From positions 1 through 33,333 of the forward strand of contig CANBWJ010000004.1 in NCBI GenBank assembly GCA_947373115.1: a stretch of 33,333 bases of DNA. Reading direction: 5' to 3'. The notes under the pieces were generated by a model. It saw nothing but the letters and a program-made list of their open reading frames with translations, made no database searches and had not been told where the DNA came from. Below are positions 20,596-33,237 of the stretch, one piece after another. This DNA is from Opitutia bacterium. GTDB lineage: Bacteria; Verrucomicrobiota; Verrucomicrobiia; Opitutales; UBA953. Position 1 is the first letter of the stretch. Every line of letters starts with the position of its first letter. The position numbers and the translations under genes are program-made.

Positions 20596-21236
20596 TTTTA
20601 AATTCGAAGAACCTAATTTATAAGGCCGTGTACCACGGGGCCCGTTCCTTCGTGGAAGTTTTCTCCACACTCGAGGTCGAAGGCTGGGAAAATGTTCCCG
20701 AGGGTGCGTGTCTGTTTGCCTCCAATCACCAGAGCATGGTTGACCCGCCCTTAATTGGTTCCTGCCTGCCGCGCGAAATTTCTTACATCGCACGCCGCAG
20801 CCTTTTTTATAATCCTCTTTTTGGGGCGGTCATTCGCTCCTGTAATTCTATTCCCGTCGATCGTGGCGAAGCCGATGTCGGTGCCATCCGGGCCGCCTTA
20901 ACTGCGCTCGGCGATAATCGCGGGCTCCTGATTTTCCCCGAGGGCACGCGCAGCTTTGATGGCGTGATCAAAGAGCCGAAGGCAGGTGCGGGCTTGCTCG
21001 CCTGTAAGTCTGGGGTGCCGGTTGTACCGATTCGCATTCGGGGCACGCGCGATATTTTACCACGAGGATCTTTCTTTCCAGTCGGTGCGGCCCGGTTGCG
21101 GATCCGCTTTGGCAAGCCAATGATGCCTGCCGAATACGATCCCGGAGCAGGTGCACCCGGCCGCTCCTTGGAGGCCTCACGGCGCATCCTGGAAGCCATT
21201 AAGGCCTTGCCCGATTGCTCTGAGCCGGGGCTTTAA
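20592..21236 (+). CDS. plsC: 1-acyl-sn-glycerol-3-phosphate acyltransferase
   Basis: 214 aa; FASNHQSMVDPPL (HX4D), LIFPEGTRSFDG; ATGA overlap with aroA-cmk. Confidence 0.93.
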   Translation: MILNSKNLIYKAVYHGARSFVEVFSTLEVEGWENVPEGACLFASNHQSMVDPPLIGSCLPREISYIARRSLFYNPLFGAVIRSCNSIPVDRGEADVGAIRAALTALGDNRGLLIFPEGTRSFDGVIKEPKAGAGLLACKSGVPVVPIRIRGTRDILPRGSFFPVGAARLRIRFGKPMMPAEYDPGAGAPGRSLEASRRILEAIKALPDCSEPGL

Positions 21237-22360
21237 GAAATCCGCTGCGGCATTACGACGCAAAGGAAGTCTTCTTTCAGTCCACGAATCACGCCGGGAG
21301 ACATGTCATCCTTGAACTCGAAATCGAGTTCATCTTCGGTGACTGCACGGAGCGGCTCTAAAACGTAAGTGGGGTTGAAAGCGATGTTCACATCGGGACC
21401 GTCGTACTTAATTGCAATCGGCTCGTGCGCTTCGCCGCTGTCTGACTTGGCGGAAATTTCTAGGTTTTGCGTCTTCTTCGAAACACTCATGCGAATGGTG
21501 TTGTTGCGCTCGTCGCACATCAACCCAGCCCGGGCGACACTGTCTAAAAGTTTTTCGCGTTCGACACGCACCTTGCTGCCCGCGTCTTTTGGAATCACCT
21601 GGCGGTAGTTAGGATAATTTCCTTCGACCACTTTAGAAACCAGCTGAATGCGGTCCACGAGGCCTTCCTCGTTTTTAGGAATGTCGATCGTGAAGCCTAC
21701 TTGGCGTTCGTTGTGCATCACGTGGGCCTTGCCGCCAACTTTTAAGAGGCGTTGTAATTCGGTGATCGTACGTGCTGGCAAAATCAAAGCTAGGGGCTTT
21801 TCGGGGCCTTCCAGTTGGCGTTCACACTTCGCGAGGCGACGACCGTCGGTGGCGACGACCGTTAATTTGCCGCCTGCAAATTCAAAGAAGACGCCATTTA
21901 AAATATAACGGTTTTCATCGGTGGATTGGGCGTAGCTGACTTTGCGCAACATGGCACCGAGGTCTTCCTGTTCGATTGAGATGGCTGACTGACCAGAGAA
22001 ACTGGCGAGTGGTGGGAATTGGTCGGCGGGTAAACCAGCGACATGAAAAACTGAACTTCCGGATGTAATTTTAACGCGATCCTTACCGGTCAACTCGACG
22101 GTGGTTTCCGCACCAGAAAGTGCACGGATAATTGGCACTAATTTTTTGACGGGTAAAGTTATTCTTCCTGGTGAAGAAATGTTTGCTTTGATGCGGCAAC
22201 AAATTCCGAGATCCAAATTGGTGGTCGTTAAGGTTACGGTGTCACCTTCGGCTTCGATTAAAACGTTTTGTAAAATCGGCATCGTGGCGCGATTGCCAAC
22301 AACGTTGGTAACGCTGGAGAGGCCGTTGAAGAAATGATTCCGGTTAACTTTGAACTTCAT
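21233..22360 (-). CDS. dnaN: DNA polymerase III subunit beta (sliding clamp)
   Basis: MKFKVNRNHFFNGLSSVTNVVGNRATMPILQNVLIEA...EFKDDMSPGVIRG..CVVMPQRIS; start taken at MKFKV rather than longer ORF. Confidence 0.96.
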   Translation of the reverse strand: MKFKVNRNHFFNGLSSVTNVVGNRATMPILQNVLIEAEGDTVTLTTTNLDLGICCRIKANISSPGRITLPVKKLVPIIRALSGAETTVELTGKDRVKITSGSSVFHVAGLPADQFPPLASFSGQSAISIEQEDLGAMLRKVSYAQSTDENRYILNGVFFEFAGGKLTVVATDGRRLAKCERQLEGPEKPLALILPARTITELQRLLKVGGKAHVMHNERQVGFTIDIPKNEEGLVDRIQLVSKVVEGNYPNYRQVIPKDAGSKVRVEREKLLDSVARAGLMCDERNNTIRMSVSKKTQNLEISAKSDSGEAHEPIAIKYDGPDVNIAFNPTYVLEPLRAVTEDELDFEFKDDMSPGVIRGLKEDFLCVVMPQRIS

Positions 22361-22612
22361 AATAAATTTAGAATGGGGGTGATGGGAGGATTGAGGCAAC
22401 CGTTCAATGCTTACACTCAATGATAGGTATTAATAGAAAGAGAGTTAAATAAATACAGTAGTAGTAGTAAAGAGCGGAAGAGCGTGTATAGATATGGAAG
22501 GGCTTGAAGAACTGAGGGATAGGATTTTCCTTAGCCTGTGTAGAAGGGGTGAATAAACCCTAGCTTGTTCACACCAGGCTACAAAGCCAAACCCTTCACG
22601 GACTATTCACAG
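22361..22612. promoter_or_regulatory. Candidate chromosomal origin (oriC) / dnaN regulatory region
   Basis: Intergenic between divergent-side end of dnaN start and pssA stop; TAGTAGTAGTAA array (22459-22470), AT-rich flank and DnaA-box-like 9-mers at 22483, 22537, 22548, 22565, 22603 (each 1-2 mismatches to TTATNCACA). Confidence 0.5.
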
Positions 22613-23500
22613 TTAAACCGCAACGTCTTCGTCGTCGTCCGGCGCCGGGTCAGTCTCCTCCTTTTTAAGAAGGAAGGCATGACGAACCACCCCGTAGATA
22701 ATATACCCAAGAAAGATGCACGGAACGGCAATTTCACTAAAGAAATAGAGACCAGCCCCGCCTAAAATAATGAGAATAAAGACCCGGGTTTTGGCCCGCG
22801 TGTCCCAGTTGATTTTCTTTAAACTCGGGAAGCGAACATTGCTGACCATTAAATAGGAGATAATCAGCATGAGCGGTAGTAAAACCCGCGACCACGATTG
22901 CAGGGTTTGATCGGGCGGACTCAGGGGGTCGGCCAAGCGAATCACCTTTGTTAGGGCCAAGACTAACGACGCCATCATACCAGCCGCCGCCGGGCTTGGT
23001 AGGCCTACAAAATCTCCGCCCGCGACCCGTTTCTCATTCCCGGGAACGAGCGGACTGGTGAGCACATTGAAACGTGCCAAACGCACGCCCGCACAAAGTA
23101 AATAGATGAAAGCGAGTAGCCAGGTGGCTAGCTGAATGTCTTTATCCTGGTTAGGGTTAATAATCAGGAAGCAGGCCATTAACGCCGGAGCCACGCCGAA
23201 CGAAACGGTATCGGCAATTGAATCAAACTCCGCGCCGAAAAGCGATTCGCGATGGGTGGCGCGCGCGACGCGTCCGTCAAAGAGGTCGCAAACACAAGCG
23301 AACAAAATAAACCATACGGCCATCAAATAGTGGTCGGCGCGCGCCACAGCCGAGAGGTCGGTAAAACGGGCCTCCACGCAGTTTTTTATGGCGAGAAAAC
23401 CGCACAACATATTACCAGCCGTGAATAAATTAGGGAGTAAGTAGATGCGCGCCGCCTCTTCTGGCGTCCGATAAACTTTAGGTTCGGGAGGTTGAGCCAT
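22613..23500 (-). CDS. pssA: CDP-diacylglycerol-serine O-phosphatidyltransferase
   Basis: 295 aa multi-pass; CDLFDGRVARATHRESLFGAEFDSIADTVSFGVAPA CDP-alcohol phosphotransferase motif. Confidence 0.94.
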   Translation of the reverse strand: MAQPPEPKVYRTPEEAARIYLLPNLFTAGNMLCGFLAIKNCVEARFTDLSAVARADHYLMAVWFILFACVCDLFDGRVARATHRESLFGAEFDSIADTVSFGVAPALMACFLIINPNQDKDIQLATWLLAFIYLLCAGVRLARFNVLTSPLVPGNEKRVAGGDFVGLPSPAAAGMMASLVLALTKVIRLADPLSPPDQTLQSWSRVLLPLMLIISYLMVSNVRFPSLKKINWDTRAKTRVFILIILGGAGLYFFSEIAVPCIFLGYIIYGVVRHAFLLKKEETDPAPDDDEDVAV

Positions 23501-31314: not shown

Positions 31315-31330
31315 TGTTCCACGTGGAACA
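31315..31330. promoter_or_regulatory. parS: parS-like centromere site
   Basis: Perfect 16-bp palindrome TGTTCCACGTGGAACA, matches the conserved bacterial ParB-binding parS form. Confidence 0.85.
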
Positions 31331-31347: not shown

Positions 31348-33237
31348 TTATTTTGCCGACTGCGCCCGGAATAAAACCATCAGCAGCGAAATGTCTGCCG
31401 GGTTAACCCCGCTAATCCGGCTGGCCTGACCGAGGGTTTGCGGCTGAACCTTCGCCAGTTTTTGTCGCGCCTCAAGGCTGAGCCCGTAGGTTTTCATGAA
31501 GTCAAAGCTGGCCGGGACCCTGAATGCATCCAGGTCGTGGAGCTTGCGGGCGGATCGAGTTTCACGCTCCAGGTACCCGCGGTATTTAACCTTATACATG
31601 ACCTCAGCCTGTATTTCTGGGCTTTCTGCCATAAATGTCGCTGGTAAGTCGGCGGGTGTCGCATCGATATTACGTCTAAGCACGTCGCCAGCCAGACCCC
31701 CAGAAATAGAGATTTTCTCAAGGTATTCGACCCAATGTGCGATTCTTGAGGCCTTGAACTCGATCCGTTTAAGCCGTTCATTAGGAACTAGGCCAAATTC
31801 AGCTAACTTAGATTTAAGGCGAATCTCGGCGCTACCATGGTTAAATAATAGCCGGTATTCGGCACGACTGGTAAACATCCGGTAAGGCTCCTGGGTGCCT
31901 TTGGTAACTAGGTCGTCGATTAATACGCCGATGTAGGCCTCATCGCGTCCAATGACCATAGGGGTCTGGCCGCGAACCTTGGCCGCAGCATTGACCCCAG
32001 CCACAAGTCCTTGAGCACCAGCTTCTTCGTAGCCCGAGGTACCGTTGATTTGCCCCGCAAAGAAGAGGCCTTCGACCTTTTTAGACTCTAAAGTGGGGTA
32101 AAGCTGGGTGGGCGGCGCGAAATCGTATTCAACGGCGTAGGCTGGGCGCATCATAACGGCTTTTTCCAGACCAACGATCGAATGGAGCATTTCGAGCTGA
32201 ACTTCAAAGGGAAGGGACGTCGATAGGCCGTTAATGTACCATTCGTCGGTATTTCGGCCTTCGGGCTCTAAATAAAGTTTATGTGACTCCTTGTCGGAGA
32301 ACTTCACGAACTTATCTTCAATCGAAGGGCAGTAGCGTGGCCCGACACCCTCGATCGCGCCGCCGTAAAGCGGGGAGCGGTGTAGGTTATCATGAACGAT
32401 CTTACCGGTGCTACCTTTAGCCTCGGTCATCCAGCACGAAACCTGATTGCTTCCAGGGGCCCAGCCAGGGAGGCGTTCACCAGCTTGTTCCACGTGGAAC
32501 AAATCGGTTTCTTGGCGGGTGTCGTAGAAGGCAAAAAGGGTGGGGGATGCGTCGCCCGGCTGCTCTTCGCATTTAGAGAAATCGATGGATGAGCCAAGGA
32601 TGCGCGGAGGGGTGCCAGTCTTAAGCCTTTGTAGTTCAATTCCTGCTTCTAAGAAACTGCTGGACAACGACTTAGCACTAAAGTCGCCCAGACGTCCACC
32701 TTCGGTTTTATTGGCCCCAATGTGCATTAGTCCGCGCAGGAAAGTGCCCGTGGTAACGACCACGGTTTTGGCGTAGAAGGAGAGGTCGAGGTTGGTGTTT
32801 ACGCCGACAACTTTGCCTTTCTCGAAGATCAGGCCGGTGACCATGGCCTGGAAGATAGTGAGCCCTGGCTGAATCTCACAGCGATGCTTCATTCGGAACT
32901 GGTAGGCTTTCTTATCGCACTGGGCGCGGGGTGCCTGGACGGCAGGGCCTCGCGAGGAATTGAGTAGGCGGAACTGAATTCCGGTGACATCGGCGGTCAG
33001 ACCCATTTCGCCACCGAGGGCATCAATCTCACGGACGATGTGACCCTTGGCCTGTCCGCCAATGGCGGGGTTGCAGCTCATCTGCGCAATGGTGTCGATA
33101 TTACCGCTCAGCAGTAAAACGTCCACGCCCATGCGGGCCGCAGCCAGTGCGGCCTCTACGCCAGCGTGTCCAGCCCCACAAACTATGACGTCGTAGGGCT
33201 TTGAGGGACCGAGGCGGATTTCTTTGGCGGGTGGCAT
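31348..33237 (-). CDS. mnmG: tRNA uridine-5-carboxymethylaminomethyl modification enzyme MnmG (GidA)
   Basis: 629 aa; [65 protein letters not shown]. Confidence 0.97.
32486..32501. promoter_or_regulatory. parS: parS-like site inside the mnmG coding sequence
   Basis: Second identical TGTTCCACGTGGAACA palindrome; encodes LFHVEQ in the MnmG frame. Confidence 0.85.

Follow-up and report, generated by a model that had tools for sequence, protein, structure and literature searches.

In the basal unwinding system (BUS) of Bacillus subtilis, a DnaA box is followed by a short GC-richer spacer, by DnaA-trios of the 3'-GAT-5' type and by AT-rich DNA; DnaA bound to the box is guided onto the trios, where it oligomerises, stretches the strand and opens the duplex, and the length of the spacer between box and trios peaks at 10-13 bp (PMC6669920; PMC8287927). 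A survey of 2070 origins predicted such sequences in 85% of them (PMC8287927). The oriC of Synechococcus elongatus PCC 7942 is located beside dnaN at the shift point of the GC skew, with dnaA elsewhere (reviewed in PMC7198777). Thus, both the BUS layout and an oriC beside dnaN with dnaA elsewhere are already known. For the part of Verrucomicrobiota considered here, no description of an oriC was found in the open-access literature, which is weak evidence of absence.

Here, we analysed a stretch of 33,333 nucleotides (referred to as the window, at its full length), which is contig C4 in the metagenome assembly (1.47 Mb, 132 contigs, 82% complete) of an uncultured lake bacterium, and compared it with relatives, of which the named ones are freshwater Opitutae / Verrucomicrobiota assemblies. 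Profiles confirm both dnaN and pssA, each on the minus strand, so that the intergenic region upstream of dnaN spans 22361-22612. This region, proposed as a candidate oriC in a preliminary description, is very probably the chromosomal oriC, BUS-type and dnaN-linked, of this freshwater Opitutae bacterium, as judged from sequence. The proposal is supported by the anatomy of boxes and trios, by conservation among the congeners, by the skew minimum and the genome-wide rank of the box cluster in the congener G026, and by the positions of parS and mnmG, all of which were observed here. The skew, the rank of the box cluster and the parS and mnmG positions hardly depend on one another or on the reading of the motifs. 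The features are listed in Table 1.

Table 1. Features of the predicted origin region and related sites (window positions, unless another contig is given)
Feature	Position	Strand	Remarks
dnaN, DNA polymerase III beta subunit	21233..22360	-	TIGR00663, 290.5 bits (cut-off 137.65)
pssA, CDP-diacylglycerol-serine O-phosphatidyltransferase	22613..23500	-	TIGR00473, 112.7 bits (cut-off 107)
Predicted oriC, BUS-type, pssA-dnaN intergenic, read towards dnaN	22361..22612	-	Boxes, trios, AT-rich DUE, 47 distinct congener sequences, G026 skew, nearby parS/mnmG
DnaA box 1, CTATTCACA	22603..22611	+	1 mismatch to TTATNCACA; mean 1.74 bits/column, 47 congener sequences
DnaA box 2, TTGTTCACA	22565..22573	+	1 mismatch to TTATNCACA; 1.85 bits/column
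DnaA box 3, TTATTCACC	22548..22556	-	1 mismatch to TTATNCACA; 1.58 bits/column
Weak DnaA box 4, TTCTACACA	22537..22545	-	1 mismatch to TTATNCACA; 1.00 bits/column; last four positions ~1.8, only CACA conserved
DnaA box 5, CTATACACG, trio-proximal box of BUS	22483..22491	-	2 mismatches to TTATNCACA; 1.48 bits/column
12-bp GC-richer spacer, CTCTTCCGCTCT	22471..22482	-	Near-invariant TTCCG at 22475-22479
DnaA-trio tract TTA CTA CTA CTA CTG	22456..22470	-	3'-GAT-5' type on complementary strand; five repeats, canonical polarity
AT-rich unwinding stretch, TATTTATTTAACTCTCTTTCTATTAATA	22428..22455	-	First 12 bp at 1.45 bits/column
Probable dnaN promoter, TTGCC 22395-22399 and ATTCT 22370-22374	22370..22399	-	Conserved in alignment; function inferred
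parS site TGTTCCACGTGGAACA, just past mnmG	31315..31330	.	16-bp palindrome; 1-2 copies per genome in 50/55 congeners
parS site TGTTCCACGTGGAACA, inside mnmG	32486..32501	.	16-bp palindrome; 1-2 copies per genome in 50/55 congeners
mnmG/gidA	31348..33237	-	PF01134, 523.5 bits
dif-like 22-bp core TTCGCACAATATACATTATGTC	G026 C5:468172-468193 (L101)		Single-copy; ~106 kb from skew maximum

The five boxes of the preliminary description, two on the plus and three on the minus strand, were all found in place with one or two mismatches to TTATNCACA, and none of them is a perfect copy of this consensus, as it had also noted. The GC-richer patch, the trios and the AT-rich stretch do follow each other in that order on the minus strand and match the BUS layout that had been claimed; the trio array, given as 22459-22470, is present there, although the whole tract is slightly longer. 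The 33-kb window holds 21 DnaA boxes with one mismatch; four of them fall inside these 252 bp, as against 0.16 expected, which is the densest cluster of the window, and the single (CTA)3 of the whole window also lies in this region. A box cluster above chance and an adjacent AT-rich unwinding element, as in a DnaA-dependent oriC, are both present. The criterion for a BUS was a DnaA box with at least three 3'-NAN-5' trios of the right polarity no more than 16 bp away; here there are five, at 12 bp from CTATACACG. The box-plus-trio score is 9, compared with 3 at the 99.9% quantile of the background (1500 random 333-bp windows of G026). It should be noted that the BUS program allows a box at most two mismatches to TTATCCACA (PMC8287927). 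Under this strict rule box 5 of our bacterium is one mismatch too weak, with three mismatches to TTATCCACA, and several congeners pass; the trio-proximal box has one mismatch in G026 (CTATCCACA) and two in several congeners (CTATCCACG).

Conservation of trios and boxes in relatives that keep the pssA-dnaN order had been put forward as a check, and the layout of box, spacer, trios and AT-rich DNA is indeed kept in the congeners, where it recurs in 47 distinct sequences. It was judged from an anchored alignment, since the mechanical box-plus-trio score misses the many congeners in which box 5 deviates at more than two positions. The order of elements common to the 29 aligned congeners is TGTGAATA, TGTGAACAA, TTATTCAC, CACA, CTATnCACg, TTCCG, the trio tract and TATTTATA. 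The remaining intergenic columns of the 47 sequences carry 0.80 bits per column, to be compared with the values for boxes 1, 2, 3 and 5 in Table 1. All 40 distinct core sequences have TTCC in the spacer and 39 of the 40 have TTCCG, which is followed by a run of at least three NTN triplets in 45 of the 47 sequences; in 43 of the 47, at least three such triplets are in register and include at least two CTA or CTG. Within the trios, conservation is on average highest at the middle T, which corresponds to the A of 3'-NAN-5' on the opposite strand (mean 1.64 bits vs. 1.17 at position 1 and 1.34 at position 3). In trio 3, for example, position 1 is unconstrained (0.06 bits) and the middle T reaches 1.71 bits. 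G026, where the run is interrupted (CTA CTG TGA CTA CGG), is among the exceptions in this set.

The GC skew, also suggested as a check, did not refute the candidate: a minimum is located at dnaN in G026, the one nearly complete congener with strong skew, whereas the skew is weak and uninformative within the window and has no minimum at dnaN in the sampled parts of G029. G026 is the best-assembled congener (8 contigs, 99% complete), of which 2,254,299 bases (2.25 of 2.27 Mb) were read. Its sole clear switch from minus to plus, the cumulative minimum, is at C4:93807, within 1.4 kb of the start of dnaN (C4:92408), where the cumulative skew is within ~10 counts of the minimum. One switch from plus to minus was found, at C5:362400; among the other contigs, C2 is near zero at first and then negative, and the rest are of one sign. 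The replication arms implied by the skew, summed from the contigs, are ~1.19 and 1.08 Mb. The densest cluster of DnaA boxes in the whole G026 genome is again the one upstream of dnaN, with six boxes in 252 bp, and the next best cluster has three. Within 10 kb of the locus, the skew on the pssA side is lower than that on the dnaN side in only 15 of 22 congener loci. In the sampled stretches of G029 the skew is scrambled, without a usable minimum or maximum. Its contigs C12 and C8 (L240-L254) show weak skew with frequent sign changes, as opposed to the textbook skew of G026, a pattern that points to frequent rearrangements or to a weak mutational bias.

The gene mnmG/gidA is a frequent neighbour of bacterial origins, and dnaN, mnmG and parS occur together in our window, with the two predicted parS sites ~9-10 kb from the oriC candidate. 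The palindrome TGTTCCACGTGGAACA is as rare in the congeners as Table 1 indicates, while its reversed control has zero copies. In most of the genomes with two copies these are ~1.2 kb apart, and in most genomes with the palindrome and dnaN on one contig the distance between them is ~9-11 kb. The linkage extends to a sister genus (G061, G062, G063 and G064), where the site is ~2-7 kb from dnaN. Profile searches found one ParB gene in each of five relatives and two fragments in our own assembly, so that a putative ParB-parS pair is present; both ParB and MnmG were identified by profile, and a regular-expression signature scan missed them. As in the classical origin region with mnmG/gidA and ParB-parS, parS is no more than ~11 kb from the origin and lies in or beside mnmG. 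However, TGTTCCACGTGGAACA deviates from the canonical TGTTTCACGTGAAACA at two positions, and parB of G026 (C5:116402) is not beside parS. TGTTTCACGTGAAACA itself has no match in the relatives, and two one-mismatch matches to it in our own genome were rejected as parS, being on other contigs and not conserved.

We infer that DnaA binds and unwinds the region, and that the region serves as an origin in vivo. DnaA would bind the box cluster next to pssA, where boxes 1-4 may raise the local amount of DnaA and build a larger complex, and would be loaded from box 5 across the 12-bp spacer onto the single-stranded trio tract. The oligomer formed on the trios would then stretch the strand and open the AT-rich DNA beside dnaN, where the helicase could be loaded. 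The newly made origins would be segregated by ParB bound to the two parS sites at mnmG. Such BUS opening towards dnaN is the most likely mechanism, because it follows the published scheme and the 12-bp spacer falls within the published peak. The AT-rich stretch might also unwind alone in an origin that leaves the trio tract unused, a variant of the oriC reading that does not exclude it and that we consider unlikely. Its support comes from the interrupted run in G026 and from the nearest sister genus (L231, L232, L233 and L239), in which box-like sites and an AT-rich stretch are kept upstream of dnaN, with no DnaA-trio run and no TTCCG. However, the register of the trios and their spacing from the box are kept within the genus, and positions 1 and 3 of the trios vary more. 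The sister genus might have lost its trios when 26 bp between ACGGG repeats were deleted, but the MAFFT alignment of the region is different, and our claim is limited to the absence of a trio run.

Could the boxes instead tune the transcription of dnaN, with the real oriC elsewhere, e.g., at dnaA? Immediately ahead of dnaN there are conserved elements resembling a promoter (TTGCC and ATTCT), which would suit such a DnaA-regulated promoter, as would the DNA upstream of dnaA, which likewise has conserved boxes, e.g., TGTGAACAA and TGTTAATAA. However, the skew minimum of G026 is at dnaN and its dnaA is near the skew maximum, parS is near dnaN and absent from the listed dnaA contigs, and G026 has three one-mismatch boxes upstream of dnaA compared with six at dnaN. 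In addition, trios and an AT-rich stretch were not seen by eye upstream of dnaA, and in-register trios are needless for a simple promoter. We therefore regard this explanation as very improbable. A conserved intergenic stretch preceding a gene could also be a transcribed RNA leader of dnaN, i.e., a riboswitch or attenuator, but this was rejected as almost certainly wrong: there is no Rfam match, single-strand folding with DNA parameters shows no clear gain over shuffles (z -1.49), and the promoter-like elements lie where dnaN starts, past the downstream end of the conserved block.

As the preliminary description had remarked, dnaA is absent from the window; it was found on another contig, C6 (L001:1057-2520), and is off the dnaN contig in G026 and G029 as well, so the adjacency to dnaA that is common among oriCs, though not required, is lacking here. 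The dnaA gene of G026 (C5:377389-378810, L079) is ~15 kb from the sole skew maximum. With dif consensus sequences as queries, the best match in the G026 genome was a dif-like 28-mer on C5 with six mismatches (next best, nine). In 47 of the 55 congeners the dif-like 22-bp core is present as exactly one copy; it was not found in our own assembly, which is 82% complete. Where dnaA and the dif-like site share a contig, they are 91 kb (G026), 103 kb (G007) and 163 kb (G029) apart. Because it is near the skew maximum of G026 and shares a contig with the dif-like site in these three genomes, dnaA is probably located on the chromosome's terminus side; the support for this is good in G026, and for the genus as a whole it is suggestive. 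The broader picture, in which dnaA stays stably on the terminus side throughout the genus, nearly opposite the dnaN-linked oriC and with possible feedback on initiation, and in which a sister genus starts from the same dnaN-linked origin although it has no DnaA-trio tract, is tentative and has in our judgement somewhat less than an even chance. If it is true, the copy number of dnaA relative to the origin drops as the overlap of forks rises, which could be a built-in negative feedback on initiation.

Compared with B. subtilis, with which it shares the order and polarity of the elements, the origin proposed here is beside pssA-dnaN with no dnaA at the locus, has one poorly matching box next to the trios instead of two in tandem, and carries a near-invariant TTCCG in the spacer, and the trios are degenerate in several congeners. 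It resembles that of S. elongatus in its place beside dnaN at a skew shift point with dnaA elsewhere, but belongs to Opitutae of the Verrucomicrobiota, with dnaA apparently on the terminus side and with linkage to parS and mnmG. The points that deserve a closer look are the unusual, apparently terminus-side position of dnaA and the origin of the sister genus, which is poor in trios. The former would be a natural experiment on why dnaA usually stays near oriC, and the latter on whether trios are needed. A testable origin, together with centromere-like sites and a dif-like site, is now available for this large freshwater genus of uncultured bacteria. The peak-to-trough ratio of metagenome read depth, from which growth rates are estimated, could be anchored at dnaN instead of dnaA.

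Some further observations concern the genes and relatives. The conserved box-like sites upstream of dnaA (L033-L062) would fit autoregulation, and domain IV of the host DnaA has GGRDHGTVIHA, which is compatible with recognition of TTATNCACA. In another family member, G059 (C3:266486, L255), the DNA upstream of dnaN is different and without a clear box cluster, and parS is ~91 kb from dnaN; therefore, dnaN and the origin seem to be separated there. Finally, the ATG of dnaN in our window is ~9 nt downstream of the promoter-like ATTCT, and no Shine-Dalgarno motif is found in 22358-22399. Since the promoter-like elements abut the ATG in this way, the dnaN mRNA may be leaderless.
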